Assembly (NCBI GenBank): GCA_014904985.1
Contig: MU128989.1
Span: 33,137 to 97,136, forward strand
Source: Hydnum rufescens UP504
Taxonomy: Eukaryota; Basidiomycota; Agaricomycetes; Cantharellales; Hydnaceae
Length of the DNA stretch: 64,000 nucleotides
Direction: 5' to 3'
Shown here: in pieces, positions 905-58,859 of the stretch
How the letters are laid out: every line of letters begins with the position of its first letter
Position numbering within the stretch: the first letter of the stretch is position 1
Notes under the pieces: model-generated
Told to the model about the DNA's origin: nothing
The model's database searches: none
Seen by the model: only the letters and a program-made list of their open reading frames with translations
Translations under genes and position numbers: made by a program

Positions 905-2453
905 TGTAAGCAAGAGAAAAAGGGGGAATCTCTGCCACAGTCCGCGATATGGAATCGAGAACGAAGAACGGGGGCCACCAAAATAATCCGAATGTTCAGG
1001 TCCGAGTGTAGGAGGGTCTTTAGGATAGAAGATAATCCGCTGTCAGCAGTAGTTGCCCAAGCAGATGAATAAAGGGGAAATTATGCCACAAATCCCACAC
1101 TCCAAGGTCCTAGTCTTGTGGCCTTAGACAAAGTGTAGTAGTAGCAATGTCCTCAGATGGAATTCGCCCGGGAATCCAGCAGCAATACTTCAGTGCTTCA
1201 GACTGGGGAGGGGGAAGACAATGGAATTTTCAACACAATTCGCTTAATATACAACCCGGCTATGAGATCAAATATCCGATGGAAGCAGGGGGATAGGGGA
1301 AATATGTAGAAAAAGGAATCAAGTCAAAAGCTTCAAAACTGACAGAGATATTCAATTTACAAGTCTGGGGACAGGATAGAGCATAAAATGACTATTTCTC
1401 CTTCCCTTTTGGACTGATTCCCTTGAGGAATGGTGGAATGAGTCGTCCTGAACGTCCTATCCTTCGGATATAAGGCTGCCGGACAATATTCGATATTTGA
1501 AAATTGGAAGGGGGAATGATGTTCTCCTGAGACAAGGGGGAAATTCGTATGTAGAACACCGAGTTCTTCTTCGTTCGCTGCGCCCTTCATACCTCTGGAT
1601 GGGCATTTTCAATACCTTTCTAGGCGCGGTCGTTTCATGCAAATCCGATCAAAACTGACGGAGAAATTCGAAAAATACACCTTCTTATTATGAATGAGCA
1701 GGTGAAATCGTTCCAGAAGCCTCAGTTCTGATCCGATGAACACGTAATCGGTATCATTCGATAGGTATTGATCACAGCTTTCAGGGCGCTATATTTACGA
1801 GTCGATCGGATATGAATTGACTTCGAAAAGCGGAAAATACTCCTTAAGAGCATGGATTCCATAGTAAAATCGTTCTAGAACGTGCAGTTTTCATCGGATT
1901 GACTCGTACTTGGTATCGTCGGATAGGTATGAATCGTATCTTTCTGGGCGCTACTTTCCCGAGCCGATCCGATCAAAACTGACGGAGAAATTCAACGAAT
2001 ACTCCTTGAGAGTGCCGCATTTGCCCCTATTTGATTATGTAATGCATCCGCGAGTAGGAATGAAGGCCCGGGTGTGTAATCCATCGTATTACATAATCAC
2101 CATTCGTTAGGATCGCCCTTAAGGCAGCAAGATCCATATGAGCAGATTGAAGGAGAATTCAAGACGATATACAGAAGGGCAAGTTGAATTGCCGGGTCCA
2201 CCATATCATGGCTTATGGTAGGGCATAAATGAATACAGTCCCTGTGGCCTGTTGAAGACCCCGGGAGATTGACTCGTGTACAAGGAAATGAGCATTCCAT
2301 TTACATCTTTTCAGGCATATGGAATTCATGCTCATCCATGAACAGACGAAAGGCTTGATATTGGAACGACATATTGGTACATTTTTAATTCGTTCATCGG
2401 AAAATTCGACGCTGAAATGGAACTCTATGTGGTAGGGATTTTTCCCTCCAACA
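905..2453. mobile_element. 1.55-kb insertion in the integrase, carrying ~162-bp tandem units
   Basis: The segment interrupts the HHCC domain of the gypsy integrase. The 4 bp ACGG occur at 901-904 and again at 2454-2457. Removing one copy plus the insert rejoins the pol frame without a shift (THG then WWGKMLEILCQGFYW), so insertion with a 4-bp duplication is inferred. No long terminal inverted repeats are obvious. The inner part is a degenerate tandem array: the block CTTTCTAGGCGCGG recurs in variant form at 1616, 1778 and 1940 (period 162), each followed about 25 nt later by a variant of CTGACGGAGAAATTC. Related units occur at 35.3-35.9 kb and 48.2-48.6 kb. No coding function is recognised. 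Confidence 0.65.
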
Positions 2454-2457
2454 ACGG

Positions 2458-4105
2458 CTGGTGGGGAAAAATGTTGGAAATACTTTGCCAAGGATTCTAC
2501 TGGAAGTCCATGTGAAAGGATGTCCTATGTTACTGCGAAACTTGTGACATTTGCCAAAAGACTAAACATGACTGATTGGGACCCGAGGGCTACCTCTGAC
2601 CAATCGACGTGCCCATGTTACTGTTCAAAGTCATCAGCATGGACTTCATAACAGGGCTGCCCAAGTCGGGAGAACACGATGCGATATTAGCTGTCGTGGA
2701 CAAGCTCATGAAGTATGGCATTTTTGTCCCCACCACCACCCATGTAACTGCAGATAGAACAGCTGCATTACTACATAAAGAAGTATACAAGCATTTTGGC
2801 CTACCATCACGGATCGTGAGCGACCACGATCCATGCTTTATAAGCAACTTCTGGCATTCTCTAGCAGATTACTTCAACACACGACTAGTGATGTCCACCT
2901 CACACCACCCTCAGACTGATGGCCACACCGAAGTGATGAACCAACACCTCAAGACCATGATATGGTGCTATGTAAATGCGGACTGCTCTGATTGGGCCAA
3001 CTGGCTGGATGTATTAGTGTCTGCTTACAACAGGGCCACGCACTCAGCCACACAGATGTCACCTGCCTCCTTATTGTTGGGGTATATGCCCCGAACTCCC
3101 CTACGTTTACTACAGGAGTCAGTGGGATCAATACTCACAGACAGCCCATTGGCAGACACATGCATAAAGGCCCTTCAGGTCTGAAGGGACCTGGCCCGCG
3201 ATGCCATTATCCGAGCTGCTGACTCTCAAGCATATCAATATGATAAAAAACAAAGAGCCATCCTTTATAAAGCAGGCGATGAGGTATTACTAAACCCCCA
3301 TTCGTTGGAACTCATGGACATCAAGGGTACTGGACACAAGCTTATGCAACGAAGAACTGGCCCATTCAAAATCACCAAAGTCCTCAGTCCCACCACCTAT
3401 AGGATATGACTCCCAGACTCAATCCCGATGCATAATGTCATCAACCTAGAACACCTCAGCCTATACCAACAATCTCAAGATAAAGACCGACCCAGGATGC
3501 CAAATCCTCGGGATGATTTAAAAGCCTCCAAAGAGTATGAAGTAGAAAGGATTATGGACTCTAGGTACAACAAGAAAAAAAGGATTGTAGAATATCTGGT
3601 TCATTGGCTTGGCTATGGGCCAGAGCATGATTCATGGCAGTTGAGCCATGACCTACATAACACCCCGGAGGTCATAAAGAAATTTAAGGACCATATGGCC
3701 ACCAGTATTGCCCCAGACCCTGAGATCCCGTTGGCCCTACTTACAGTGATAGCCAGGTTTGAGGGCCCCACATTGTTCTCCAAACCGCACATGAGGTCCC
3801 ACACTGACTTCCAAAACAACAGCCCAGCACGCTATACAGGAGAGCCACGATATGGCTACACCTTCTACGAAATGTACCATGCTGTCCTGATGCCACCAAT
3901 CACACGACTTACCCGAACCGGACATATGGGCATGTTGGACATCCTTGGTCAACCACCTTCTTTCGAACTAGTCACCTCTGCGCAGCCCCTTAGCCTACTC
4001 GCAGCATTTGTGCCCACCTTTCTACAGCCAATCTGCAAAGTATGGGACGAAAACAAACAATCCGTTGTCAAAACACCAGATGCTGTATTGGGAACATATC
4101 ATTGA
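2458..4105 (+). pseudogene. Ty3/gypsy integrase core and chromodomain
   Basis: This continues the pol gene after the insertion. The CC half of the zinc-binding domain reads CETCDICQKTK near 2540. The integrase core (2609-3184) shows the DDE acids in context: MDFITGLPK, IVSDHDPCF and HTEVMNQHLK, with the usual HHPQTDG before the glutamate. After a stop at 3182-3184 the frame continues with RDLARDAIIRA...GDEVLLNP, then a second stop near 3407. From 3536 a chromodomain follows (YEVERIMDSR, YLVHWLGYG, HDSWQ), the module that directs integration to modified chromatin in chromoviruses. The frame runs on to a stop at 4103-4105. Several in-frame stops make it non-functional. No flanking LTR was identified. 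Confidence 0.9.
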
Positions 4106-4214
4106 TGGTATAATACCACACTTAAGTCATATATAAACATGGTCTCATACCGCCAATGGTAACCCTGGTATCATTAGCCTCAGCAGGCCGGATTTCTCCA
4201 TAAAAGAACATTTC

Positions 4215-4310
4215 ACAATGTCCCCACAGTGAGATTCGAACCCAGAGCTCTTTGATATAGCATGAGGAACCAGAAGCACTAGTTGGCTAGGTTAACTCAT
4301 ATTGCTTGTA
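4215..4310 (-). other. tRNA-like (SINE-head-like) segment
   Basis: On the minus strand this contains GGGTTCGAATCTC, a good RNA polymerase III B box, and about 45 nt upstream TAGCCAACTAG, a possible A box. No full cloverleaf could be drawn with confidence, so a decayed tRNA-derived SINE head is more likely than a working tRNA gene. Confidence 0.35.
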
Positions 4311-4481
4311 TTTCTTGTCGCAATGTTTCCTATATACCCCAAGGGTTTTTCCGTCAGTTGCTCCGCACAGTATTCTCTATTTCTGTGCCCCTGTGTCATC
4401 TGTCATCCTTTGGCTCTGCAATATGGGCAGTGTATTTAATTTGCATATTAAATACATAATGGGACAAGCACCCTTTCCACT

Positions 4482-6775
4482 CTAATCCTCATTGCTATGT
4501 ATGATGTCCTGATCGATATTATTGACACTTTGATCAGGATCACTCATGACCCCTGGGGTTTTCCATATCCACGCGAAGTCTTTGGCCCTATTGCAAAGGA
4601 TGGATGCTTGTTTGGCAGCATACGCATGGATGCCATCCGACAGATCAAGTAGAAGTCCAGGCATATGCAGAGATTTCCAGTCTTCCCACCAAGCGGCACG
4701 ATACTCAGAAAATTGGAGGATGTGGCACATCTCCTCTTGAAGAAGCTGCACCTCCTCGGCCCAGTGCTGCATTCGCGCATGTGCCTTGGCCCATTCATCA
4801 CGCAATGCTAGGGAACTCAGTACAATACAATGATAGAATGAGATACGTAACTTACCTTCATGCATATCTAATGTATCATCTCTGTGTGGGGCAGCGGGTG
4901 TAATCCAGATCCATGAAAGGGTCCGATGACCCTCACCAGGACCGTCCCTAGGCCTTCGGGCGGCGTCATCTTCGTGTGCCGAAAGAGCACATAGGTCATC
5001 TTTCCCCAAGGGTTTCAGGACACTTTCCCACTCGCCAGAGCCTGCAAGGGTCAAATAAGATTTCCGGGCCACAGAGTACCTCATGGCAATTCTGTTCATT
5101 CGTGCTTCGGCTTTATTGAGAAGTGTCTGTGCACGTGTATTTGGGTTTTGCCCGGACACTTGATCCACCTTGTACTTAGTCAGATGGGCATAGACAATCA
5201 GGGATTGACAAAGCTCTGCAATTGAATCCATTGCCTGCGCATAGCGAAGCTTGTGTTCCATGTCCGCAAGGTTGAAGAGGGAAGCTGAGAAGGGAGCCTC
5301 AACAATTGAGTCTCAGGATGACAGTCTGAATCATCTCTAGAGGGCATCACAGCTACGAGGCACATTGCCTCAGGCATATATGCTGACTGTATCATACGAA
5401 ATGCTGAAATATGCTTTCCCACTTGAAGCCGACACTCCTGAATGTCAGTTTGCTGAAGTGCTGTGCCAGGGCCACTCTGCGCAGCCACATCTTCAGTGAG
5501 ATGTCACCTTCAAGATACATGAGTATCACATTACATCCATTCGGAAATCTGCCACTCACTGGTGTTCTTCCAGTTCTAAACCCATAACAAGGAAGGCACA
5601 TGTGCTTACAGCATGTAATTCAGGCTCGCCCGCAGCATGGGACTGCCTCTCTGATTGTATGAGTTTGAGGTGGATTTGTGCTTGGGTCATTGCTATTGCA
5701 CACAATGAGTTTATTTACCCATACATGCACATGTGGGAAAGAAAAACATACATGAGGCCATGATGACGTACGGGTTGGGCTTGGTATTGTCTGATTCCCA
5801 AGCCAATACCATGGCCAACCATTCATCAGTCACGGCGTTCAAAAAGCCAGCATTGAACTGGTGAAATTGGTCAGAATGTAGGGTAGTTGCAGCGACGGCA
5901 GCGAGTAACTTGGTTTTGAGAGAGTCACCTAGAAAGGAGTGTTAGATTGTAGTGCATTTTGCAAGAGAATAACTTGCCAAGTCCAATGACCTTACAATAG
6001 TTCCAACCTCCGAAGAGATCATCTATTGTGTTGTGCCAGGATCCCTTGCCCATTTCTTTTGTGCTGTTGGCAGTGGGATTAATATTTGCCCAGTCACGCT
6101 CAATACCTTCACCATCCTTACGTCCAGCACCAGGGCGGAGGTTGAGTGAGAATTTCATGTGACACTGTTGCTTATGCGCAGGGAGGTGGAATTTTGGTAT
6201 GACACCCGTGAGCTGTGTTTTTGAATCGAGACAGAGGAGAGGAGGGAGCTGAGCATGGCGCACTGCTTGCTTCTTTATCCATTGACAGAATATGTCATAG
6301 GACAAGAGCACGCTGTGGAGGCCAGATGATCACAGGCTTGAGAAGATGATGAAGTCCATATTGCTGTAACTGTGACATATTATTAATAATCGTTCAGTAA
6401 TTAACTCGGGAATCAACCTTACCATTTGCTTTTCTGGAGATCCCAAGTCCGAGGGGATGAATACAGCCTTGATGTGCACACACAGATGCGCTGACACCAG
6501 TCACTCGTAGTCCTGTCAACTTCCTTGTGTTGGCAAGGTCCACAGCAGCAAGCCCACTGCATGTTGAGATCTGGTCAGGTGAATCAGTATAGTGTATGGG
6601 ACATGAGGGATTCTAGAAATGAGCTTACATCCTTCTCAGACATGAAATCTAAGAGAAATTTCTTGTATATTTCATCTTTGACGAAGTAAGCCCAGCCTGT
6701 GCCGAGACCTGGATCGGAACGGCCCCAGGTTTGAACAGCCTGGTCAGCCAATTATCAGTATCTAATTAGATACTT
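4482..6775 (-). pseudogene. KDZ transposase 1 (CxC2 class), central and C-terminal part
   Basis: Read on the minus strand from about 6770, spliced exons give SDPGLGTGWAYFV, STCSGLAAVDLANTRK, CVCAHQGCIHP, then YDIFCQWIKK, PKFHLPAHKQQCH and the hallmark GRKDGEGIERDWANINP, then WLAMVLAWESD and PNPYVI. The long C-terminal ORF (5261-4482) contains LRYAQAMDSIAELC, NTRAQTLLNKAEAR and EEVQLLQEEM. These are the ordered conserved blocks of KDZ transposases, which move large DNA transposons in fungi. Short introns separate the blocks. The N-terminal cysteine cluster of the same gene lies at 12260-11618; the ~250 residues normally between the halves are missing, and element E1 plus an LTR sit in their place. 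Confidence 0.85.
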
Positions 6776-6780
6776 CAAAG

Positions 6781-6904
6781 GTTGCATTTATATGGTCTAA
6801 CTAGATATCAGACCCGGGGGCCCCCAGGGGCCCCTGCAATTCAATCAAGGGGGCTGGTCAAGCAGCCCAGGGGCCCCTGGGGCCCTAGCCATGGATTATT
6901 TATT
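6781..6904. repeat. GC-rich palindromic border and TTA-rich run left of E1
   Basis: The perfect 12-bp palindrome CAGGGGCCCCTG occurs at 6825-6836 and 6868-6879. A TTATTTATTA-type run begins just outside the last recognisable E1 unit, near 6896. It may mark the outer edge of E1, but no matching sequence was found at the other end because an LTR truncates the right arm. Confidence 0.4.
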
Positions 6905-8700
6905 TATTTATTATTATTATTATTACTACTATTATTATATACAATGATAGGCTCGCCCAGTGGGGCTCACCCATGCGCCCAAGAAGAACAGCCAGAGGCT
7001 GCTCTTCTTGCGCGATCACAGCCAAAGAAAAAGCCTCACCTTCATGTGGGGGGGGGTTTGGCTTGGTTCCCGGGTTTGGGGTCGTGGGGTTCAGCTTGGC
7101 GGGTTCGGGGTCGTGGGGTGGGTTGCAGGGTTCGGCTCGCCAGATCTTCGTTCGCCGGGTGTTCGTTTGGCGGGTTTGGGGTCAGGGGTTCATGCGGATT
7201 TGAGTCCAAGATCTAGGGGAAAAAAAACAATATGTTAGAAAATAAAGCTTTGCAAGAAGAGCAGCTTATGCTGCTCTTCTTGCACCGCAGGATTAATAAA
7301 AAAAGCTCACCTTGTAGTACCACACCCGCGGCGGCGGGTGTGGTACTTTATATTCCCGTGTATGGTCGGCCGGGTTTCGAGATGCGGGGTCGTGGGGGTT
7401 CTTGCATCGGTATTCGCTCGCGTGAAAGGTGAAGACCTAATAGAAAAAAAAGTCGGTCAGTAAAGAAGTAAAGGCAGCGCAAAAAGAGCAGCTTACGCTG
7501 CTCTTTTTGCGCGCTGTATATATTGGGGGGACTCACCTTATATAGAACCACACCCGCCATAGCGGGTGTGGTTCATGCTGCCGTTCGCTGTGCGCGTTGT
7601 CGTCTGTTGTGGTCGCACTGGTCACGTTTTCGCGGTTTTCTTTGTCAGGGGGTGGGTCGTTTGGCATGTCTTCGGCGGGGTTTTGCTCACCGGGTCTTCG
7701 TTCGGCGGGGTCACGGTTGTGGGGTTTCGCTCGGCGGGTTTGGGTTGGGGGTTTGTGTGGGTGCGAGTCCAAAAGCTAGAAGAATAAATAAACATTACAT
7801 ATTGCAAGAAGAGCAGCTTACGCTGCTCTTCTTGCGCCACAAAAAAAATAAAAAATAAAAAAAACTTATCTTGTGGTACCACACACCTGCCGCAGCAGGT
7901 GTGTGGTTCCTGGGGCCACTCGTTGGCTTCACGTCGCTTTGTGTCTTTGCTGGTGGGGTGGTCCTTCACTCGCGGGGGTTTCGTTTGGCGTGTGACTTTT
8001 GGCGCGCGTTCGTGTCATGGGCTGTCATTTCGGGGGGTTTGGGGTTCATTTGGCGGGTCCTTGTTTGGCAGGGGTCCGTTCCGCTCGTTCTTGTTGGGTG
8101 GTTCTTCATTTCATTGGTTGTAGGGCAGGGGATAATCTAGAAAAAATCTTTACATTAGTGAGAAATTAAAACCAGTGCAAAAGGAGCAGCTTTCGCTGCT
8201 CTTTTTGCGCAGCTGGACATATTGGAGGGGGGGACTCATCTTATAGAGAACCACACACCCGCTGTAGCGGGTGTGGGGTTCGTGCGGCCATTCACTGGGC
8301 ACATTGTCGTCTGTCGTCGTCGCGTTCGTCACGTTCGTTGCGTTCGTTGCGTTCGTCGTGTTCATCGCGTTCGTCGTGTTCATCATGTTCGTCGTGTTCG
8401 TCGTGTTGTCGCGGTCTTCCTTCTCGTGTTGTTGCCTGGCGTGGTCCTATTTGGGCCCTGGCAGGTCGGGCCTTCGTCGTTTGGCTGATCCCTAGGACCA
8501 GGTCATGATCTATATGAAAGGTGCTGTGTTAGTAAACAAGTTCAAAGCAGCGCAAAGAGAGCAGCTTTCGCTGCTCTTTTTGCGCTGTTGTATCTACTAC
8601 GATAAAAAAAACTCACCTTGTGACCACACACCCGCATCGGTGGGTGTGTGGTCATCTTTCCTTCTTTGGGTGGTTTCCCTGTTAGGTGGTGGTTGTGAGA
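6905..8700 (-). mobile_element. Element E1, left arm: six outward exon-intron units with hairpins
   Basis: Six units run outward on the minus strand from the central palindrome. Intron-like segments (donor to acceptor, plus coordinates): 8616-8510, 8239-8137, 7869-7776, 7536-7437, 7310-7213, and a decayed one starting at 7039. Donors are GTGAGT or close (two have AT in place of GT), branch-like TACTAAC or TAACAT occurs near the end, and acceptors are (C)TAG. Inside each intron is hairpin A (stem core AGAGCAGC/GCTGCTCT; at 8548-8587, 8175-8215, 7804-7835, 7474-7515, 7252-7283, 6974-7015). Just before each donor is hairpin B (stem core CACACCCGC/GCGGGTGTG; at 8622-8653, 8248-8281, 7875-7910, 7545-7574, 7316-7348). 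Exons of roughly 130-270 nt have no shared open frame. Short ORFs here are by-products of the repeats. Confidence 0.85.
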
Positions 8701-9356
8701 GAAAGAAACACAACTCAACACCGGCAATTGCCGGCATCCAAAAAGCGCCCAAGTGCAGCGTCACGACTACAGTATGAATTAGTAGCAAGTGACTAAATGT
8801 AGAATAAATACCATATAATTAATATTTGTCGAAAGGAAATAAAGAGGCCATAACAATGAGTCAGAGTTCACTAAGGCATGCACATTGCAAAGTGGATTGG
8901 GCGATTTCTATGCTTCACAATCGGCTTAAATTTAAATATATTGGTGGAATATATGTACCCTACATGGGCGATCAATTATTTCGGGCGCTCCCTCCATTTT
9001 TCAATTTTTCGTACCTTCAATTCCTTAAATAGGGAATTGAAGGTACGAAAAATTGAAAAATGGAGGGAGCGCCCGAAATAATTGATCGCCCATGTAGGGT
9101 ACATATATTCCACCAATATATTTAAATTTAAGCCGATTGTGAAGCATAGAAATCGCCCAATCCACTTTGCAATGTGCATGCCTTAGTGAACTCTGACTCA
9201 TTGTTATGGCCTCTTTATTTCCTTTCGACAAATATTAATTATATGGTATTTATTCTACATTTAGTCACTTGCTACTAATTCATACTGTAGTCGTGACGCT
9301 GCACTTGGGCGCTTTTTGGATGCCGGCAATTGCCGGCGTTGAGTTGTGTTTCTTTC
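8701..9356. repeat. Element E1, central near-perfect palindrome
   Basis: Positions 8701-9024 are the reverse complement of 9033-9356, with an 8-nt spacer at 9025-9032. I found a single mismatch (8720/9337) in 324 nt. Each outer end holds the smaller palindrome GCCGGCAATTGCCGG. Outside 8701/9356 the two arms are still homologous but diverge quickly. The pairs of identical ORFs seen on the two strands here merely reflect the palindrome. Because units run outward from it on both sides, a bidirectional promoter is possible; AT-rich TATA-like stretches are present, but no promoter is proven. Confidence 0.95.
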
Positions 9357-10971
9357 CCGCACCTTACGCAACCACCCAACAAGGAACTAGACGACCACAC
9401 ACCCGCCGTTGCGAGTGTGTGGTCACTAGGTGAGTTTTATTTTGGAATAGCTACAACAGCGCAAAAAGAGCAGCGAAGCTGCTCTTTTTGCGCTGCTTTT
9501 ACTTCTTAACTGACGCTCTTTTTGTTTAAATCTAGGTCTCATCTTTCACACGAACAAATAGCAACACGAAACCCCAGCAGCCCCAGGTATCGACACCAGG
9601 CCAGTAAGAACGGGGACGACCGTATAACGACCTACCCGAACAAGAGTCCGCACCTGAAAAGCAGCACGGTGCATGGCCACAGAGTGAAACGAGGTACCAC
9701 ACACCTGCCGTGGCGGGTGTGTGGTACTATATGATTGTTTTTTTTTTGTTATTTTTATTTTATTTTGTGGTGCAAGAAGAGCAGCGTAAGCTGCTCTTCT
9801 TGCAAAGTTTTAATGATTTAACTAATATTATTTATTTTCTAGATCTTGAACTCAAACCTGTATGAACCCGCAGAGCCAAACCCCGCAACCCCAAACCCGC
9901 CCAACGAACGCCCGGGAAACAAACACCCGCCCCACGAACGCCCGCCCAATGAACACCCACCCAACGAAAACTTGCCATACGAACACCACCCGCCTGCCAA
10001 AACCGACAATCCGCCAAATGAGCACGGGCCAAACGGCCTCCGCCAAACCAAACTTTCCAAACCACACACCCACCAAAGCGGGTGTGTGGTAATATTAGGT
10101 ATGTCTAATCCCACCGGTGCCAAAAGAGCAGCAGAAGCTGCTCTTTTGGCACCTCTGTTTTCTTTTTTTGTACTAATGTATTATTATTCGTTCTTCTAGG
10201 TCTTTTCCCTCCGCGAAGACCCACCCGACGAGGACATCGTGTACCATACACCCGCTTTGGCGGGTGTGTGGTACTAGTAGGTGAGTTTTTTTTTTATTAC
10301 GCAGTGTACCGCGACGCCAAAAGAGTAGCCCCGGCTGCTCTTTTGGCGTTGCCTTCGTTTTTTTTCTTTACTAACATATCATTATTCTAGGTACATTTTA
10401 CCATGCAACACCTGACCCGACGAATGCACAGATCAGGCCAGGGCAAAACACGGGACCACGCAGCCACCCATACCCCCCAATCCTCGACTTCCCACAACAT
10501 ATATGAGGACGAAACAAATACAGCGCCACACACCCGCTTCGGTGGGTGTGTGGCAATATTAGGTGAGTTTCCCCCCCTACGGGTGTGTGACGACGCCAAA
10601 AGAGCAGCACCAGCTGCTCTTTTGGCGTTGCCTTTGTTTTTTTTTTCTTTACTAACATACTATTATTCTAGGTATCTCCACTGCCCGATATCCGACTCGA
10701 CAAATGCACAGACCAGGTCCAAAGCAAAACACGGGACCGCACCGCCCCCATACCCCCGACCCTCGATTTTCCGCAACAACGAAACACGAAACAAATACAG
10801 TGCCACACACCCGCTTCGGCAGGTGTGTGGCAATATTAGGTTAGTTTTTTTGATTATGAGGTGTACCACGACGCAAAAGAGCAGCACCTGCTGCTCTTTT
10901 GGCGTTCCCTTTGAATTTTTTTCCTTTACTAACATATTAATCTTATTTTTACTTATTTAATCTAGGTTATC
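9357..10971 (+). mobile_element. Element E1, right arm: six outward exon-intron units with hairpins
   Basis: Plus-strand mirror of the left arm. Introns: 9430-9535, an ill-defined donor to 9842, 10099-10199, 10281-10390, 10563-10671, 10840-10965. Donors are GTGAGT, GTATGT or GTTAGT; the last three have a clear TACTAACA before an ATTATTCTAG-like acceptor. Hairpin A lies in each intron (9457-9495, 9772-9803, 10116-10153, 10315-10348, 10594-10627, 10871-10903). Hairpin B ends each exon (9393-9424, 9694-9727, 10061-10090, 10241-10274, 10525-10554, 10802-10831). Exons 10391-10562 and 10672-10839 are alike (ACAAATGCACAGACCAG, AAAACACGGGACC) and other exons less so. Exon lengths (256, 81, 172, 168) do not keep one frame, so a coding role is unlikely. 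A solo LTR cuts the arm at 10972. Confidence 0.88.
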
Positions 10972-11617
10972 TGTCAGGGCCACGCTGCGACGGGAGCACC
11001 AAACAACTATAAACACGGATAAGTCCGACTAGGTCCGGTGTAAGTCCGGCTTAGTCCGAAGGAATCCGGGCAAGGCTGAGATAAAGAGAACGGAGGAAGA
11101 TAGAAGAGAGTTCCAGCAGCCCGGAAGGGTCTAGGCAGAAAGGAGCATGACGGTCCTTAAGCTCGTGGAGTTAGCTGGAACACACTCGGAACTGTAGTCC
11201 GGGGTAATAGCGGAAATCCTGAGTTTTCATAGAAGACATAAGGAAGTACAAGGACAAACCTGTAGTCCGGGGTAATAGCAGAAATCCTGAGAGACCAAAG
11301 CTGAGGCCTCTGGACTTTGCCCTGGACTACTTATACAGGACAGCTATACTACGAGGGGAGTGATCATCAAGGGGGAGGGTGGTTACAAGGGAGGTGGAAA
11401 CAGGAACAGGGGAGCGGCCAGGAACAAGGACAGGTACTAGCGTGGGTAACTCGGAATCAAAGGAAATGAAAGAGAAATGAAACGTGACAGAACAAACTCG
11501 GAAGCAAACGGAAACAAACGGAAACAAGAAGAAATAAACTGACGGAGCCCGGAGAGCACCGGAGACAAATCGGAAGCAAACCGGAGTTATCGGAAAAGAA
11601 GCGGACGAACCTTGACA
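10972..11617 (+). mobile_element. Solo LTR, family A (copy 1)
   Basis: It begins TGTCAGGGCCACGCTGCGAC and ends CCTTGACA, and is homologous over its length to the better copy at 61088-61754. As in that copy, it holds two direct copies of a GTAGTCCGG..AATCCTGAG block about 75 nt apart. The 5-bp flanks (TTATC left, GGCTC right) do not match, so one side has probably been rearranged. Its left edge abuts E1 and its right edge abuts the N-terminal part of KDZ gene 1. No internal retroelement genes are attached. Confidence 0.75.
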
Positions 11618-18858: not shown

Positions 18859-20848
18859 TTATATGGGCAGTGATAAGGAAGGGAATGGTGCTGTCAGGCT
18901 ATTTCACGGTATCAATGGTATTGATATGTCCCAATATATCAGGCATGGTAAGTTACCTTGTGGTAGTTAGCGGGGTTTATATATGACTTAACAATGGTAC
19001 CATACCATGTTTGATATATCCATACTACAGTATGGGCTGGTCAAAAAGGAATGTCTAGAGGCTCTATGGTCCTCCTGGGATTACACCTGGAGCTGAGCAG
19101 AGGAAAATGAACAAAACTCCAAATTCCTGATTCCTGCTTTCGTCAGGGACATCCGCTATAGGATCAATGCTCCAGATCACCCCAAGTTCAAAAATCTATT
19201 CAAGCCTTGGTATTGTAGCGACGCACTTCACGCTAGATACCTCCAGATCACACGAGTGATTGCAGTACTATTGGCTTACTCTAATTACATCATCGCCCAC
19301 CAATTATTCACCAGCTCCCATCCACCATACGAAAGCCCAGAGGACATGGCTACAGTCCTGTGGTATTTGAGCGCACCAGTTGGTTTCGCCTGGGACAAAC
19401 TGGCTGATGAGACCATGGACTCCTTGCTTTGGAAACAGTTACATGCCTACTATCAGTCACGGGTCACGTTGCCGCTACCGTGTAATTGCCGTTTCCTCTC
19501 TACCTCCTTCAATTCTCACACAGCAGGTTCCAAACTTTCCATGTAGATGTAGGGTATCTACAGCAAAGTATCTATGACAAAAAACTGGCAAATTTCATTG
19601 ATTTGTTGTCTCTTTGTGTTATTTTAAGTGTTCAGGCAAACAGAATTTGTTGCTTCCGAACCACCCGAAATGCTTCTCCTAAATATTTAGGGCATCCCTT
19701 GCCCCCAAATTATCATAGTCCCATTGAGTATGTTCCTAAGAAGCTATCTGCCTAATTTCTGCCTTCCTAGGGGTGATCTGGACAAATGAGGTGCACCAGA
19801 ATACTGGTGCCTAAATCTGATTTGGTGTTTCCCATAAACAAACAACTTTCAACTCTGTCCAACTCCATGTCACCCCAAGCCCCTCTTGGCATCAACCTCA
19901 GCCCCGACCTAGATGGACAACACCTCATATCAACATGATGGAAACCCCCAACACGGCCATTGGTTCAGCTCTCCAGTATGCAACAGACAGCATGGCTGTG
20001 TACCTGGGTCTGCCACCACCTCTCATTCATTTTAACACACCTAAAGACACACCAGACAATGAGGCAGCAGAGGTTCTACTGGTGCTGGGAGCAGGGCGAT
20101 GAGATTCAGAGCAACGGCAATTAAGCAGGTTGCCGAACTACTTGGGCACAAAATGGGTGGTCAATGCGGATCCGTCATACCACCCTCAATTTTGCACAGA
20201 ATCCCTTATAATTTTTAGGACTTGTTTATAGTATCATTGGACCTATTCATGCCAAGTTTGAGGGCAAACGGAGCTCTCTAGCACCTTCGGGAATGATTTT
20301 GGTAACTTCGCGGCAATTACCCCATAAATGATAGTACAGGCTTTGCACGTTTGCAGATTCCAGCTGTACCATTCACACAATGGAAGCTCTACCAGAATCC
20401 CAACTTGTACTACTGCAAAACGGTTATTTCGCAAGCGACGAAGCCAGATTACAGGAACCACTCATCCTCTGCAACCCCTTTGAAGGAGACACCCCCCCAT
20501 TCCCAGGGGAGAACAATCGGGAGACTTACAAATGGGAAGACATATTCCCAGGTCCCCCTCCCTGCCCCAACAACTTCGACATACTGGATAACGTGACCAA
20601 GCACCTGTACTCAGCCGCATACTACTGACCAGATGGAACCTTCATGACAGCTGCCAAATGACGAGTTGTAAATGCCGGACCACCCCTGAACGAGAACACC
20701 ACGGAACCCAGCATCTCGCAATTCAATGTACCCATATCCTCACCAACTTGGGGGGATGAGGTCCCTACCATGGAGACCACCAATGGTACTTCAAGGAGCA
20801 GCACAGACACAGATGACTGGTGGAACCAACTGCCACATTGCCAGTTCC
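18859..20848 (+). pseudogene. Decayed coding region, unrecognised (left of the LTR)
   Basis: Several plus-strand fragments with protein-like composition. One is around 19150-19460, with HQLFTSSHPPYESPEDMA and VLWYLSAPVGFAW. Another starts near 19935 and contains DSMAVYLGLPPPLIHF, ending at a stop near 20100. A third is 20380-20628, with FASDEARLQEPLILCNPFEG. The last runs up to WWNQLPHCQF, where an 847-bp LTR begins at 20849, and may resume at 21696 after it. No domain is recognised. Retroelement gag is one possibility, based only on position and the Pro-rich tail. Confidence 0.35.
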
Positions 20849-21695
20849 TGTCAGGATCAAATTGACATTTGCTTCTGCCTAAGGACTTACCCGTCAGAGT
20901 ATCATTCTTCATCGACTCTATCATATGGCACCTACTTCCTCAAATGCTCTTGTCTCCTCTCTCCCTCCATTCACTATGGGGGTTATTGTCATCCTTGCCA
21001 TTATTGGCATTTCTCTTATTATTATTGCCCTCATTCTATCGGGCCTCGGCCAGCAGGCTATGGGCTGGGTAGTCAACCAGTGGCAGTATTGGTGCCCTTG
21101 TCAGCACCTGTCATTCCCTCATTCCCCACGTGAGTCCATGGAGTTGCCAATCCAGACTCCCCCTCCTCCTCCTCTACCCCCAGTCCCTGAATCCACATCA
21201 CCTGTCCCAATCTGTACTCCATCCACATCATTATGGTCCTTTGACACTTTGGACACCTTTGGAGTACCCAGGCATACACTGCCTTGGAAGTACATACGCT
21301 AAGGGGGATACATATGGAAGTTGGGGCATAGCCATGTGGAGGTGCGCACAGGATTTGTAACATGGCTGCATCAGCTTAGTGAGGCTTAGTGATGGTGGCT
21401 GTGGAGGCTGACTGATGGGCTGTGGAGCCGGCATTCTAGGAGGATCCAGAAGGTTATGGAAGATGGTGGAAGGCTCTGGAAGGCTGGAGGCTGTGTGCAG
21501 GAAATAGTATTTATAGCCCTTCACAGTTGGGGGATCACCAGTTTCGATCTCTCAGGATTCCCACTGTGATAGGTGTGAGACTTGTGTGTCCCTTGTTGTG
21601 TGGTGTATACTCAGGATTCCCACTGTGATAGTGTGTGGTTAATTAATCTCTTTCCTCTTTCTGTTTGTGGCTTCGACGGCAGTGTCACCCTGACA
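20849..21695 (-). mobile_element. Solo LTR, family B (copy 1), 847 bp
   Basis: On the minus strand it starts TGTCAGGGTGACACTGCCG and ends GATCCTGACA. It is the same length (847 bp) as the copy at 45478-46324 in the opposite orientation and highly similar throughout. Flanks are GTTCC (20844-20848) and GTTCT (21696-21700), a 5-bp target duplication with one mismatch. ORFs of up to 125 aa inside occur identically in both copies and are not genes. A twice-repeated GGAATCCTGAG block lies near the 5' end. Confidence 0.9.
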
Positions 21696-22639: not shown

Positions 22640-25600
22640 TGGGGTTGAATATGATGCCCTAGTAGAATAAGAAATGGTATGTTAGTAAGAGGAAAACCTG
22701 CTGGGGGGGCCTGTAGTACATGTTGTATGAAAAACTCACACAATATTACCACGCCCGTTGTATCTGATTTGTTGTCATATAGCTTGCTGATACTTGGGGG
22801 GTGGGGTCTGGTCGGCTGCATGCTCCCGTATTTCACCCTGGACTTTGTCTGTGTATTCTTTGGGTGGGGTATCATGCAGTGGAGGTCCCTAGAATAATAA
22901 TACGTTAGTAAAGAACAAAAAATCAAAGGCAATGCCAAAAGAGCAGCTGGTGCTGCTCTTTTGGCATTGTCATACATCCTGTAATCAAAAGACTCACCTG
23001 ATATTGCCACACACCTGCCGAAGCAGGCGTGTGGCACTGTCTTTGATTGGTTGTCAGATAGGTATTTGATGGGGGTCATGTTCACCCTCATTGGGCATGT
23101 CTTCATGCAGGGGAGATCTACAGTGGCAAATAATATGGTGGTTAATAAAAAAAACAGAAGTGGTGCCAGAAGAGCAGCAGTTGCTGCTCTTCTGGCATGG
23201 TTGTACATCTTATAACGAGAGACTTACAAGATATTACCACACACCCGCCGCAGTGGGTGTGTGGCATGGTGGCTTCCTCCTTTGTCACACACCGCCTGGG
23301 CATTAGGGCCATGGCATGCATGGCTGTGGGGTTGTTGGGTGGTGTTCTCACAGGTTTTGACAGGGGGGTCCGTATCGGGTTGCAGGTGGCTGCGCACATC
23401 TGTGTTTCATCTTGGATCTCGGCTGTGTTCTTGTCAAGTGGAGTTTCGTGCATTGAGAGGACACCTAGAATAATAAATAATATGTTAGTTTTAAAAAAAA
23501 AAACAGAAACAGTGCCAAAAGAGCAGCTACTGCTGCTCTTTGGGTGCTGTTGTATGTTGCTGTGGAAAACTCACCAGGTATTACCACACCTGCCGCAGTG
23601 GGTGTGTGGTACCATATTATCCATCGTTGTGTTTGTTGCAGGCGTTTGGGGACCAGGACATCAAATCGGGCCTTGGGTGGCTGTGTATGTCCGTATTTTG
23701 CCTTGAGTTTCATGGCTTTTGTGTAGTGAAGGGGACCTAGAATGCAGGAATAATAATACATTAGTAAAAAGACAAACTGGAGGTAGCGCCAAAAGAGAAG
23801 CTCCTGCTGCTCTTTTGGCACTGTTGTACATACACATTGTAATAGAAATTTACAACCTATTACCACACACCCGCCTTGGTGGGTGTGTGGTGCTCTATTT
23901 CATTTGTTGCTGTGTTCGTTGGGAATTTCGGTACTGGGACCTCGGATCAGGTCTTGAGGGGCTGTGCACACCCTCATTTCACCTTGGGCATCTGGTTTCT
24001 TTCGCTCAGGTTTTGCGCAGTGAAGGGAGACCTAGAATAAATGAATGATACATTAGTAAAAATAAAATAAAATTGGAGGTAGCGCCAAAAGAGCAGCTGA
24101 TGCTGCTCTTTTGGCACTGTAGTACACCCTGTAAAGGAAAACTCACCCAATAGTGTACCACAGACCTGCTGGAGCAGGTGTGGCACCATATCTAACTTGT
24201 TGTGTACATTGCAGGTGTTTGGGGGCAGCAGTTTTGGATGGCTGCATACGTCTGTATTTCACCTTGGGCCTTGTCCGTGCTGGCTTTGGGTGGGGGTTCA
24301 CACAGAGAGAAGAGACCTAGAATAATAAGTACATTAGTAGAAAAAAAAGAGACAGGTGGCACCAAAAGAGCAGCTGGTGCTGCTCTTTTGGTGCTGTTGT
24401 ACAAGTCGTAATGAAAGACTTGCCTAATAGTACCACACCTGCCACAGCAGGTGTGTGGTGCTGTATTTAGTTTGTCATCGGATAGATTCAGGGCTGGGCC
24501 CTCTGATGAGGTTTGAGTGGCTGCGCACATTGTATTCATCTCGTGCCTTGTCTATTTTCTTCAGGTAGGGTATTGAGGGAGAACCTAGAATAATAATATA
24601 AATAATAATATTTCAGTAAAGAAAAACAACCAAAGGCAATGCCAAAAGAGCAGCTGGTGCTGCTCTTTTGGTGTTGTTGTACACCCCGTGTGAAGAAGAA
24701 CTCATCTAATATTGCCACACACCTGCCAAAGCAGGTGTGTGGCGCCATACTTGTTTCGTCGTCGCATGGGTTGCAGATAATCAAGAATTGGGGTCTTGGG
24801 CAACTGCGTGCTCCCATATTTCGCGGTGGGCACTGTCTGGGCATTCTTCAGGTCAATTTCACAGAGGGAGAAAGAACCTAGAGTAAGCAATACGTTGGTA
24901 AAAAAAATAACATAAGCAACACCAAAAGAGCAGCTGGTGCTGCTCTTTTGGCATTGTGGTATGCCCCAGAATGAAAAAACCTCACCTAATATTGCCACAC
25001 ACCCGCCGAAGCAGGTGTGTGGCACCATGTTTGATTTGTCATTGCGGAGGTTGTGGATCGCCAGTGATGGAGGTTTCAGGTGGCTGTGCAGGTCTGTATG
25101 TCACCCTGGGCTTCATCTGTTTTCTTGTCAGGCAGGGTTTTGCTCAGCGAGGGGGAAGGAATCTAGAATAATGAATAATGAATAATATGTTGGTTCAAAA
25201 AAAGACCAGAACCAGTGCCAAAAGAGCAGCAGTTGCTGCTCTTTTGGCACTGCCATATATGCTATAACGAAAAACTGACCACGTACTACCGCACACCCAC
25301 CCCAGCAGGTGTGTGGTGCCAGGTTTTATCGGTCGTCATCTAGGTTGTAGGCATTTGGGGACTGGGCCCTTGGGTCGGATCTTGGCTTTCAGATGGGGTT
25401 CTGGGTGGCTGCGTATGTCGTCATTTCACCTTGGGCCTCGTCTGTCGGGTGGGGTTTCAGGCAGTGAGGGGAGAACTATAATAAAGAACAATATGTTAGT
25501 ATTAAAAAAATGAGACAGCATCAAAAGAGCTGCTGCTGCTGCTCTTTTGATATTGTGGTACACCCCGTAATGAAAAAGAACTCACCTAATGGTGCCACAC

Positions 25601-25939
25601 ACCTGCCGAAGTGGGTGTGTGGCACTGTGTTTGATTCATTGGGGAAGTTGCAGATGCCCAGGGATGGGAATTTCGAGTGGCTGCACAGGTCCACATGTCG
25701 CCTCAGGCTTCATCTGTTTTCTTGTCAAGTGGGGTTTCGCGCAGTGAGGGGATACCTATAATAAAGAATAATACATTAGTATAAATAAATAAATAAACAA
25801 ATAACACAAGACAGCACCAAAGGGCAGCTTCAGCTGCTCTTTTGGCACGGTCATACAAACCGGCATGCAAAACTGACTGTACATGGTATCCTGCTGCGGC
25901 AGGTGGTGTGCTCTGTCCTTACTGCTTTGAGTGCATGCT
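22640..25939 (-). mobile_element. Element E2, left arm: about twelve outward exon-intron units
   Basis: Units run outward on the minus strand with a step of roughly 235-350 bp, mostly 275-305. Intron donor-acceptor pairs (plus coordinates): 25586-25476, 24985-24878, 24705-24585, 24423-24317 (GC donor), 24146-24032, 23574-23465, 23227-23118, 22997-22889, 22739-22659; others have decayed donors but keep acceptors at 25756, 25163 and 23737. Acceptors are mostly TTATTCTAGG-like, preceded by CTAA(C/T). Hairpin A starts at 25813, 25518, 25213, 24917, 24637, 24358, 24083, 23785, 23511, 23162 and 22928. Hairpin B starts at 25885, 25593, 25287, 24994, 24714, 24430, 24156, 23861, 23581, 23235 and 23006. 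Innermost and outermost units are the most decayed. Exons are homologous to one another and show no shared frame. Confidence 0.85.
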
Positions 25940-26587
25940 ACTCAATGCCGGCACTTGCCGGGATCGAAAGAGCACCCAAGTAGGGGCAGCACAAACACCA
26001 CATTAAGGGATAATAAGGACATAGACATGTAGTAAACAGTGAATAATAATATTATTGCAATGAAAGTGAGGAAAGGAAGGGTAGTGAGTTACATTTCCTT
26101 AAGGCACTATATGGCAACAGTGCAAAGTGGATTGGGAGAGTGCCATGCATTATAATTGGCCCAAATTTGAATATCTTGGTGATATATGTGTATCGTGTGT
26201 GGGCGATAAAAAAAATTGGACGATCAGGCCATTTTTCAATTTCTCACACCTTCGATTCCCTACTTAGGGAATCGAAGGTGTGAGAAATTGAAAAATGGCC
26301 CGATCATCCAATTTTTTTTATCGCCCATGCACGATACACATATATCACCAAGATATTCAAATTTGGGCCAATTATAATGCATGGCACTCTCCCAATCCAC
26401 TTTGCACTGCTGCCATATAGTGCCTTAAGGAAATGTAACTCACTACCCTTCCTTTCCTCACTTTCATTGCAATAATATTATTATTCACTGTTTACTACAT
26501 GTCTATGTCCTTATTATCCCTTAATGTGGTGTTTGTGCTGCCCCTACTTGGGCACTCTTTCAATCCCGGCAAGTGCCGGCGTTGAGT
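25940..26587. repeat. Element E2, central palindrome (2 x 324 nt)
   Basis: Positions 25940-26263 are the reverse complement of 26264-26587, with essentially no spacer. I count about nine mismatches, all transitions. The sequence is homologous to the E1 palindrome: the same GCCGGC..TTGCCGG ends, CAAAGTGGATTGGG and CCATTTTTCAATTT in the same order, the same arm length of 324 nt. The two elements have nevertheless diverged widely in between. Confidence 0.95.
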
Positions 26588-28340
26588 TGTTTGTTTTGAT
26601 GATTACCTAAGCACATATATTGCAGTTATATAGCCCTCAACTACCCATAACACCAAGGGAAAAACAGGATCACACCCCCACTACAGCAGGTGTGGTCCTA
26701 TATGGTGAGTCCATCCCATTAGATACAGACACATGAAAGGGCAGCTTTTGCTGCCCTTTTCATGCTCCTTTGACATTTTAAACTAACAATACTTTATCTA
26801 TTCTAGGTTATCACCCCAGCTGAACGATGACCCAAACAATGATGTGTATGAAACCTGTGATGACCATGTGGACAAAATGCGAGCCGAAACCGACGGAAGA
26901 CCCCACATGCGTGCGCAGCCCCCAAACCCATGTGACGAAACATAAATACAGCACCACACACCTGCTGCGGCGGGTGTGTGGTACTATCTGGTGAGTCCTT
27001 CATTACAGAATGTACAATGGCACCAGAAGAGCAGCATAAGCTGCTCTTTTGGTGCCACTTCTCATTTTTTTGTAAACTAACATATAAATCATTATTTTAG
27101 ATCCCCCTTCCTGCACGAAGACCCCCAATGAGATCGTGGATGAGACCCCTGATGAAAATCCCAACATGCACAGGCAGGCCAAAATCAATGCAAGACCCAC
27201 ATGTATGCACAGCCCCTCAGACCCATGCGATGATCAATAAAACAAAGTACCACATACCTGCTAAGGCAGGTGCGTGGTCATGTAAGGTGAGTTCTTCACA
27301 GCCATGCAAAAAGGGCAGCGAAGGCAGCCCTTTTTGCACTCCTTTAATATTTTCACTAACATATAATATTATTTCCATTCTGGGTTATTGCCTCCCACCC
27401 GAATAACAATGGTACGAAACCTGTGGCAAGCCCCGAGCAAGCCAGACCCTTGCAAGACCCCGCATGCATGCACAATCTCAACCTATGTGACAACCAATAA
27501 AACATGGAACCACACCCGCTGTGGCAGGTGTGTGGTATTCCCTCATGAGTTATTTATTACAGCAGCGACAATGACACCAAAAGAGCAGCTGAAGCTGCTC
27601 TTTTGGTGCTGCCTCTTATTTTTTTTTTAAATATTATTTGTTATTCTAGGTTCCCCCTCCCTATGCAAAGGCTCACCCAATGGGACCACAGACCAGGTCC
27701 CAACAATGATACCCACACACGCAGTTGTCCAAGACCCTGTCCAAGCCTCAAACACCTGCGGAATACACAATGATGGATAAGGCACATTACCACACCTGCT
27801 GCGGCAGGTGTGGTAATCATAGGTGTGTCTTCTCAACCAATATAGATACAATGGCACCAGAAGAGCAGCAGGAGCTGCTTTTCTGGTGCTGCCTCAGGTT
27901 CTCTACTAATGATTTATCCATAACTCTAGATTACCCCTACCCCGGATGAAACCCTGCCTGGCAAGAATGTGGACAAGCCGGAACACGAAACATCGATGTA
28001 CACAATGCCAAAGACTTTGCCCAAGGGCAGTACACGACAACGATGGATAAAACACGGTACCACACCCCGCTTTGGTGGGTGTCCAGACCTATACAATGGT
28101 GCCAAAAGAGCAGCAGGAGCTGCTCTTTTGGCACTGTCTTGGGTTCTTTACTTACAACTTAGTTATTATTCTAGATCACCTACCCCCGGACAAAACCCCA
28201 TACAATAAAAACACGGATGACACCCCACCTGAAATACAGATGCATGCAGCCTCCCCCATGAAGTGCTGTGAAATTGATCACTGGAACGCCCATGCAATGA
28301 AGTCTCACCTGGGATATATGTGTGCAAAGCCCCTGCAAAA
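26588..28340 (+). mobile_element. Element E2, right arm: six outward exon-intron units
   Basis: Introns on the plus strand: 26705-26806, 26991-27100, 27287 to about 27394 (acceptor CTGG in place of CTAG), about 27544-27649 (ATGAGT donor), 27823-27929, and one ending 28174. Hairpin A: 26732-26764, 27019-27056, 27305-27338, 27575-27610, 27853-27890, 28099-28135. Hairpin B: 26667-26698, 26952-26984, 27247-27278, 27508-27538, 27786-27817, 28057-28084. The first hairpin A here has AAAGGGCAGC paired with GCTGCCCTTT, a compensated change from AGAGCAGC/GCTGCTCT. Exons share the blocks AAGACCC.CATG.ATGCACA, ACCCATGTGACGA and AATAAAACA. Exon lengths (184, 186 for the two best defined) do not suggest one frame. 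The outer limit is uncertain. Confidence 0.85.
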
Positions 28341-28555
28341 TGCAGGGACTTGAGCAAGTGCATTATTGATAATTCTTTTGGTCTATTCCCTACCCGCGGG
28401 TGATGGATATGATGGATATTATCCACATATCCATCTGATTGTAGGTATAATCATTGTAATTAGCTAATTATTGATACAATACATGTAATATCCCATTATG
28501 GGATTTAGAATATTATGTAATACACCATTATTGAATTTTTAGTATTATGTAATGA

Positions 28556-28601
28556 GTGATGTATCACTGGCTGTGATTTGGGTTGCAGACAGTGATACAT
28601 C
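28556..28601. repeat. Short inverted repeat with TGATGTATCA ends (second copy)
   Basis: GTGATGTATCACT at 28556-28568 pairs with AGTGATACATC at 28591-28601; the counterpart is at 22166-22224. Confidence 0.6.
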
Positions 28602-28649
28602 CCTTGTGTTGGCATATTAGAGAGAGTTGATTAATCTATGGTGTGTCTA

Positions 28650-31600
28650 CCACTCGCATCATGGGCATGATGATATCATGCAGTGACCATGCTCATATGG
28701 GCCCAGGATTTCTTGATGAGAGTATTCGCATGTGTATTTGCATGCTGGCCATGTACTTCATGTATTTTGTAGGACCGGAGGTGAGCAAAGACAGAAAGGG
28801 CTCAGTGTAGTTCAGCAAGAGCATCGGTTGCTTGGGCAAATCGTAACTTAGCTTCAACATGGAACAGGCCTGAATCTGGATGGGGGTTGAGGGGGATTTC
28901 ATTGGGCATGAGGTGGAGTTTGTTCAGCATGTAAAGTGGAATAGTCTCCAGTGTATTCTGATCGACACGTGTGTCAGATAATAGGAGGGAAATGGTTTCA
29001 GGCATGTGCAGCTTTTGAATGCCGTGGAATGTGGCCAGGCACCTTTGTAGAGCAAGCTGGTGGTGTTCCACATTAGCCCTCTGAGTGTCTGTGCTAGATG
29101 ACTTCAGCTTGCTGGTCTCAACACATAGACGACATCTAAAAAAAGTAAGATGTTAGCATAAAATTGCCATGAACAATCCCACAGACAACCCACTGTGCAT
29201 CTTCAATGTCTAATCCCATGTTTATGAAAGCACTTGGACTTGTTTCCACATCCAATTCACTGGCAGAATAGCTATCACACTCAGCAGCAATGAGCTCCAA
29301 GGTTATTGCCACTTGAGATTTAACTAAGAACAAAACATTAGTATAGAACCGACCTAGAGATATAATGATACAGACAGATGGTCTCTACAACATATGGATC
29401 TGGTTTACTCTTGTCCTCTTCCCACTCTTGTATCATTATTGTCCATTCCTCCTTGGAATTACTGGGGATCAATTTGCAGAAAGTCTCATGCTGTTCACTG
29501 CGGGTCTGCACCTGGAGGACTGCTTCTCTTAGCTTCTTCCTGAGTAGAGGACCTGTAAATGAAATCCATAGTTAGGGACAAGCTTATGATGGTGTTAGGC
29601 TCAACTTAACCTATGGCGAGAATCTTCCAATAGTTTGTATCGCCCCATATGTCATCCAGCATATTGTGCCATGAACCTTCACCCATTTCCTTTGTACTTT
29701 GGGCAGCAGCGTTCACGCTCGACCAGTCATGCTCAATCCCTTCACCATCCATGTGTCTGACTCCAGGCAAATAATTAAGAGAGAACCTCATTTGGCACGA
29801 TTCACCATGTGCATTGAGATGGAATTTTGGTATAGCACCATTGAAAGTCAGGTGTCAAAGTTGAACTGAAGAGAAGGTGGGAGCTGCTCATGTCATGTTT
29901 TTAGATTCTTGTAGTACATGCACCAGATGTCATACGTATTGAGGAAATCCTGGAGATTTGAGCCTTGAAGTCCTGAAAATAGGATATAATCCATGTTGGC
30001 ATATCTCCAGTGGAAAAAATGTTAGGCAAGACAATGTGAATACATGCATAAAGACTCGCTGTTCACCCTTCTGAAGGTCCCCTATGCCAGTTGGTTGCAG
30101 AAAACCATGGTGGGCACAGACAATGGCACCAACTCCTGTGACTTGCAGTCCCCTCGAATTCTTCGAATTGGCTTGATCAATTGCTGAGAGACTGGTGCAG
30201 GTTGAGGTCTAGAGATGATATTTAGTGAGACGTGCAGGACTGAGAGTGGGGAAGGTGGTGATACCTCTGTTTGTTTTCCACAGTTTGCCAGATATTCATG
30301 GTAGGCTTGTTCTTCAATGAAATAAGCCCACCTGGTCCCCAAACCAGGGTCGTGGATGCCTTTATTGCATAGGCTTAGACAGAAGTTGGTGTCTTGTGAT
30401 GTAATCTTCATGTACAAATAACTGCAAGGAGACAAATTTATGGTGAGGGGTAAAACATATCTAGAACACATATCAATTGCAACGTGCCATTTAGAGAGGT
30501 CCTCCCATCATCTGTCAGGGAGGTTCATGCTGGGAATCGGGCAGGCAGGGCACACAAGTGCCAGCTCCCCTCTCCTCATCCCTTCTGCACCCAAGGGGTC
30601 ATGTCCACATCCTCCCTGTTTCAAGAGTTTGAGATGTCTCCATATGCAAACCATATGGAGGAAGGACGAATAGCGAGACTAGAGAGAATGTTAAGAAACC
30701 AAACACAATCAACAACGATTGATGACATACCTTTATATCCATGAGACCCGAGTTGTCTGTCTCCCTCTCCAATGCCTGATAGAAATGGATAGTGGAGACC
30801 TTGGACTGAACTGACTGGAGATGGAAGTGGTGTAAAAGTTGGAATGTCGCACATGTTTGTGGGTGTTGAACAGTTGCAGGGAACAACCCATGATGAAGGA
30901 GTTGGTTGATGATACCACAGTTGTTCAATCGGGAGCATCCACAGAAGGTAAGATTAATGTAGTGGAGACTGTTGATGTGAATAATGGTGAACTTTGAAGG
31001 ACCTGGCTTAGGGCTCAGACATGCATCATATTTGTCGGAGGAGTGATTAAGCTGAATTCATAGGCCCAGACTCGCAAGACTCACTGGTTCGAATTGTTGA
31101 CCTGACCATTGCTGACTGGTTGTCAGTATGCCGCTAATTGTGTACAGAGTCCATTGGAACTCACCTCTGTACGATGAAAGGGTAGTCTAGTGTGATGACG
31201 AACACAGCATACTTTGCAAACAAGCTTGTCAAAGAAGCATTCCTTGCAGCAGTATACACTGCTCTCTCCTGGAGTCTTGCAGTCAGGACACCCCAGTGTC
31301 ATCAACGCATCTCCATGACCTTCATGCCAGAGCATGGCATCAAGGAAATCATCTCGATAAGGGATCCATGTCTTTAGCAGTTTGTCCTAGAATCATTAGT
31401 GAGAATTAATATGGGCCCCAAACTTTTGACTCATAACATACCACAGCCTGGTAATGTTTACAAGGATGTGGGGCACCAATATAATGTACAGTTCCTAGAG
31501 TTTCATCATCTTGATGACCATCAAATAAGCCAAGCTCAGTACTTTGAAGGTCAGAGTGATAGGGGACCTCTCCCCTTGTCTCCAGAGATTTAGGTATCAA

Positions 31601-58846: not shown

Positions 58847-58859
58847 GTCACATCAACCG

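Follow-up and report, generated by a model that had tools for sequence, protein, structure and literature searches.

What is carried by an element whose units look spliced, encode no protein and run outward on both strands from a central palindrome? The question is raised by E1, which lies in a 64,000-nucleotide stretch of the Hydnum rufescens UP504 genome (contig MU128989.1, positions 33,137 to 97,136; hereafter the window), on the contig numbered C81 in the 63.2 Mb of genome searched. The explanation favoured here, at a probability of roughly 0.55, is that E1 would be a non-autonomous transposon mobilised by KDZ (Kyakuja-Dileera-Zisupton) transposase and carrying two divergent genes for spliced non-coding RNAs. 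Its ends, target-site duplications, outward splice signals, covarying paired hairpins, non-coding character and a left terminus in common with KDZ elements can be read directly from the sequence. Non-autonomous transposons are mostly regarded as ends plus filler; in E1 the filler is highly ordered and abundant, one of its two hairpins (hairpin A) having 6031 sites in the genome at up to two mismatches (reversed control, 0).

Ends, copies and the probable mover of E1

E1 begins at position 6736 and not at 6905, where the initial annotation had placed its start, and the end given there, 10971, is a junction with another repeat, after which about 490 bp of the other copies, including the right end, are missing. 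Four full-length copies (L045–L048) measure 4689–4774 bp and have the same left boundary as the window copy. Perfect 8-bp target-site duplications flank all seven E1 copies scored at both ends (L045–L048 and three more; four further copies, which the right-end search expression did not match, are unscored). At 10972 a different repeat starts, and the bases that follow next in E1 are absent elsewhere in the window. This adjoining repeat, which starts TGTCAGGGCC (10972–11483), recurs at 33643 and 61068. The E1 right end has 106 exact places in the genome (control, 1). As a first look yielded 228 candidate left ends and 355 candidate right ends (40 of each scored), hundreds of E1 copies are likely in the genome. 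At G000:C110:59445-59604, three E1-type right-end 14-mers fall inside 160 bp, and two of the three are arranged back to back.

The centre of E1 is a 668-bp palindromic core whose arms (8695–9027 and 9030–9362) are 99% complementary. From this core twelve hairpin-A units, six per arm, all face outward, in agreement with the layout first described; with 17 more in a related array, E2, they make up the 29 units listed in the window, where about 30 had been reported. A unit opens with a CA-rich exon that has hairpin B at its end; a donor follows, hairpin A comes about 28 nt later, and the intron continues through a T-rich stretch and a CTAAC-like branch site to a YTAG acceptor (Table 1). The donor follows hairpin B by 5, 7, 9 or 11 nt in 106 of the 114 cases with a nearby donor, any GT[AG]NGT being taken as a donor. 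The proposal that every unit has a donor and an acceptor holds for eight of the twelve: the donors at 8239 and 7869 read AT for GT, that near 9730 is lost, and the unit at 7010 has no acceptor. The left arm ends in an AATAAA-rich tract, and a similar tract lies at the right-arm end in L045, past the cut point of the window copy.

The exact ends, the 8-bp duplications and the left terminus that E1 has in common with KDZ elements mark its carrier as a non-autonomous DNA transposon, and because this 14-bp terminus also occurs in elements encoding KDZ transposase, KDZ probably moves E1. The initial annotation had set the whole element outside known classes; the carrier belongs to a known class of DNA transposons, and the unusual part is the cargo. 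Three KDZ elements (L073–L075) start with the same 14 bp, near a KDZ gene, and have otherwise no match to E1. One of the three encodes CxC1 and KDZ domains, and its left insertion boundary is confirmed by an empty site. Among 99 listed left-end places of 198 (150 of 154 KDZ matches listed; one of two overlapping places on contig C12 omitted), 11 have a KDZ gene at most 3.5 kb inside, in all 11 pointing toward the end, and four have one outside; by our own arithmetic, chance would give about 0.8 per side.

In the available portions of the sources, Cryptococcus KDZ1, which has CxC1 and KDZ domains, is described as making 8-bp duplications (PMC12810828), and Kyakuja as having CA..TG ends without inverted repeats and 7-bp duplications (PMC12730594). 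E1 is like the former in its duplications, like the latter in its CA..TG termini, and like the KDZ elements of the same genome in its 14-bp left end. It differs in lacking a transposase and, as far as seen, in its right end; KDZ1 is further reported with 241-bp inverted ends, and the same portions of these sources do not mention an array cargo. Overall, E1 is probably moved in trans by KDZ transposase, and its membership is likely without being closed. In the window itself, a decayed KDZ-type gene (CxC1/CxC2 match below cut-off) occupies 52283–55822 on the minus strand, with the terminus-like CAGGCTGGTCAGTT at 52283.

Other identities were considered. Matches to the hAT dimer domain number 90 in the genome, and the one candidate inspected, on contig C142, was rejected as a partner of E1: this hAT element, which has ends and a duplication of its own, is nested in an E1-type right arm (about 2390–6680 of locus L072). 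A Helitron is ruled out by the 8-bp duplications. Like foldback elements and miniature inverted-repeat transposable elements (MITEs), E1 is non-autonomous, symmetrical and multicopy, but its symmetry is tightest at the centre, its length is 4.7 kb and its splice signals are oriented. The ends of E1 match each other poorly, near-identity being found in the core, which argues against a foldback element. MITEs are short, usually under about 1 kb, and the length of whole E1 copies rejects this class. A survey of the open-licence literature by titles and abstract openings found no element of the E1 design.

Hairpins, splice signals and the non-coding array

The hairpins are far more frequent than expected by chance: in the whole window, hairpin A has 26 matches (0.13 expected) and hairpin B 17 (0.00 expected). 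Viral contigs have no match to the exact hairpin pattern, and at gathering scores no Rfam family matches the window. The two-hairpin pattern of the unit, present in the first description, recurs in E1, E2 and other genome copies, and the hairpin pairs covary. Across 20 units, 12 of 30 pairs are altered on both sides, in 33 cells, and 93.9% of the pair cells are standard pairs; 0 of 500 shuffles reach these values, and sliding the partner gives at most five such pairs. These units were hand-picked, mostly with clear signals (18 of the 29 window units and two from L045). The folds of four units are stable, with z values of −8.2, −6.2, −8.3 and −8.3. The hairpins thus pair, and the conclusion that they do so in RNA leans mainly on their fixed place next to splice signals. 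A strand test on hairpin A, the orientation step of which admits GTGTGT as a donor, gives 194 G-U to 94 A-C, favouring RNA.

The splice signals follow the outward direction, as the initial annotation had it for the two strands. Among 162 hairpins from 17 elements, with direction fixed by the palindromic core alone and 15 of 31 segments set aside for want of a recognised palindrome centre, donor, branch site and acceptor are all present on the outward strand of 85 and on the inward strand of 2. Taken singly, a donor other than GTGTGT is found outward at 94 and inward at 23, CTAG at 127 and 32, and a branch site plus YAG at 131 and 21. A looser donor expression, which also matches GTGTGT within hairpin B, gives full sets at 120 outward and 2 inward; of the 212 introns found with it, 78 use GTGTGT as their donor and 134 a different one. 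GTGTGT is excluded from the zipper-stem comparison, the intron lengths with and without hairpin A, the longest open stretches and the donor sites in the variation analysis below.

Zipper stems of budding yeast have linkers of 42–85 nt, with a minimum of 10 nt between donor and stem and of 20 nt between stem and branch site, according to the available part of the source (PMC12350175). In hairpin-A introns the corresponding medians are 51 nt for the linker, 28 nt from donor to stem and 22 nt from stem to branch site, and 78 of 122 distinct introns lie within all these limits, against 35% under random placement. Hairpin A therefore fits the geometry of splicing zipper stems, and its removal shortens the median intron from 106 to 69 nt (134 introns). 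As in yeast, the stem separates the donor from the branch site, and the linker is similar; E1 differs in repeating one stem type in tandem on a non-coding mobile element, which offers many naturally occurring variants of a single zipper-stem intron. Hairpin B would remain in the mature RNA.

Variation among copies bears on how these features are maintained. In 11 of the 14 copies of the E1 subfamily, with cells taken as independent, CpG sites are about 10 times as variable as other sites, which hints at CpG methylation and decay. After correction for CpG, the ratio of observed to expected variation at the splice signals is 0.73 (donors), 0.16 (acceptors, P 0.015) and 1.32 (branch sites). Hairpin A has a ratio of 0.88 and hairpin B of 0.87; the remaining intron sites have 0.73 (P 0.0006), exons 1.06 and the core 0.68 (P 3e-6). 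At donors and stems, recent copies thus decay almost freely, yet paired stems and splice signals are retained across diverged units; this is read as selection acting on the lineage that goes on jumping, and suggests that being spliced may help the element spread. The core arms differ by 1.9% within copies and by 3.0% between copies; of 19 core variants private to one copy, 6 are found on both arms, a hint that the arms correct each other.

The absence of a common reading frame, noted at the outset, is supported by several features of the arms. Of 205 indels among 11 E1 copies, 182 have lengths that three does not divide. The most open exon takes lengths of all three residues modulo 3, and even its best frame is free of stops in just 6 of the 11 copies; its variation is spread evenly over the codon positions (0.036, 0.034 and 0.037). 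Exon lengths modulo 3 reveal no frame with looser donors (54, 41 and 53 of 148) or stricter donors (32, 22 and 25 of 79). Open frames do exceed those in shuffled sequences (113 to 87 with looser and 66 to 45 with stricter donors), and the longest open stretch beats the shuffled maximum in 2 of 10 arms; such an excess can arise because CA-rich repeats contain few stops. Twelve deposited H. rufescens proteins overlap arrays of this kind. As their models agree with the array splice sites at 12 of 15 acceptors but at just 4 of 15 donors (four proteins mapped; two of six did not), this group of hypothetical proteins looks like an artefact of gene modelling; the models also disagree in frame between copies.

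Proposed mechanism and competing explanations

In the proposed mechanism, a KDZ transposase would recognise the E1 ends in trans and leave 8-bp duplications. Outward transcription would begin in or next to the palindromic core, and up to six introns might be spliced per arm, with hairpin A serving as a zipper stem that draws donor and branch site close together. Splicing would thus join the CA-rich exons, each with hairpin B at its end, into a mature RNA that closes at the AATAAA-rich tract. The promoter, transcription, splicing, polyadenylation and KDZ-driven movement in this scheme are what we infer from the arrangement of the sequence. The benefit of splicing to E1 is the least certain part; the most likely conjecture is that efficiently spliced transcription would keep the element active or spare it a silencing that senses poorly spliced transposon RNA. 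A silencing that senses poor splicing has been described in Cryptococcus. If splicing aids spread, a link between splicing and transposon silencing would become testable in H. rufescens, a non-pathogenic ectomycorrhizal mushroom. More tentatively, and with the odds rather against it, E1 might represent a class of selfish elements in which a structured, spliced non-coding RNA cargo aids spread: a two-way palindromic promoter, zipper-stem introns and hairpin-B exons would act as RNA, perhaps serving as a decoy or shield where silencing is tied to splicing or RNA interference, and one array module would ride elements with different ends, such as E1 and E2.

Several observations weigh against a KDZ-mobilised carrier of spliced RNA genes. 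On the side of the mover, a KDZ gene lies inside the E1 right end at 0 of 100 listed places, the opposite end of a KDZ element was not found within 17 kb, and E2 bears the same units but a different right end. On the side of the RNA, 77 of the 162 hairpins lack the full signal set even on the outward strand, donors and stems are nearly unconstrained within the E1 subfamily while branch sites vary above expectation, and the strand test on hairpin B, oriented in the same way as that on hairpin A, gives 72 G-U to 91 A-C and does not favour RNA.

The weak constraint on the stems of recent copies and the negative strand test of hairpin B would both suit an alternative in which the hairpins work as DNA, namely as palindromic sites for transposase or host factors, like subterminal motifs, the splice signals being left over from the amplification of a gene fragment. 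As DNA, both hairpins are palindromic, with up to a dozen copies per element. However, pairing is preserved through letter changes, which a fixed protein site does not need, full signal sets are in strong outward excess, and the signals last across diverged units. In addition, the three KDZ elements with the same left end hold neither hairpin in the 7.2–7.9 kb fetched (part of one reads N). This alternative survives best, and is nevertheless unlikely.

It is more improbable again that the arrays are source loci of small RNAs, hairpin A in the introns and hairpin B in the exons being cut into products like small interfering RNAs (siRNAs) or microRNA-like RNAs (milRNAs). Many near-identical tandem stems of strong stability would be in keeping with this, but the stems have about 12 to 18 pairs, which is short for precursors of the siRNA or milRNA type, the window is without an Rfam match, and the branch and acceptor sites would be left unexplained.

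There is very little likelihood that the units supply or collect introner-like introns spreading singly into host genes. The available part of the source (PMC8469720) attributes stable secondary structures to introner-like elements of fungi, and the array introns are likewise multicopy and structured, with a median length of 106–110 nt. As sampled, however, these introns sit in a larger mobile element: all six isolated or paired sites fetched, of the 6031, proved to be arrays with at least three hairpins A and at least two hairpins B, and the 8-bp duplications flank the whole element. Finally, the deposited gene models treat the arms as coding for repeat proteins of low complexity; this is the least credible explanation, being opposed by the frame-breaking indels, the lack of a frame in exon lengths and the equal variation of codon positions despite the excess of open frames.

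Related arrays and other features of the window

Table 1. Positions of E1, its parts and units, and the related array E2 in the window
Feature	Position	Strand	Basis or components
E1, truncated transposon copy	6736..10971	.	exact left boundary and exact right junction against L045–L048
E1 left terminus CAGCCTGGTCAGCC, common to KDZ elements	6736..6749	+	198 exact genome places, reversed control 0; starts L073–L075
AATAAA-rich tract at left arm end, possible polyadenylation region	6896..6930	-	sequence
Palindromic core, presumed two-way promoter	8695..9362	.	inverted repeat, 333-nt arms, 99%
Left unit 1	8492..8651	-	hairpin B 8651–8624, donor GTGAGT from 8616, hairpin A 8577–8558, branch CTAAC, acceptor 8492 or earlier
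Left unit 2	8137..8278	-	hairpin A 8201–8184, acceptor 8137, donor mutated to ATGAGT (8239–8234)
Left unit 3	7776..7906	-	hairpin B 7906–7879, hairpin A 7835–7804, CTAG near 7776, donor mutated to ATAAGT (7869–7864)
Left unit 4	7437..7572	-	donor GTGAGT from 7536, hairpin A 7512–7477, acceptor 7437
Left unit 5	7213..7345	-	donor GTGAGC from 7310, hairpin A 7284–7251, acceptor 7213
Left unit 6	6980..7039	-	GTGAGG from 7039, hairpin A 7010–6980, acceptor not found
Right unit 1	9395..9535	+	hairpin B 9395–9422, donor GTGAGT 9430, hairpin A 9457–9495, acceptor 9535
Right unit 2	9697..9842	+	hairpin B 9697–9724, hairpin A 9771–9804, acceptor 9842, donor lost (about 9730)
Right unit 3	10062..10199	+	hairpin B 10062–10089, donor GTATGT 10099, hairpin A 10116–10153, acceptor 10199
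Right unit 4	10244..10390	+	hairpin B 10244–10271, donor GTGAGT 10281, hairpin A 10311–10352, acceptor 10390
Right unit 5	10526..10671	+	hairpin B 10526–10553, donor GTGAGT 10563, hairpin A 10591–10630, acceptor 10671
Right unit 6	10803..10965	+	hairpin B 10803–10830, donor GTTAGT 10840, hairpin A 10874–10901, acceptor 10965
E2, related array with 11 units to the left and 6 to the right, core 25940–26587, right end 28655	22730..28655	.	

The core of E2 is 75% like that of E1, and its right terminus (...CTACCACTC) is a different one. A left end and a duplication of E2 were looked for and not found; its right end holds in the three copies compared, and two of five near matches stop short.

Elsewhere in the window, 20848–21696 and 45477–46325 form a pair of 849-nt inverted repeats with 97% complementarity, and a tandem repeat of about 305 bp is present in 2.7 copies at 58563–59406. 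An open frame at 3410–4105 encodes a chromodomain, a domain that occurs in retrotransposons of the chromovirus type.

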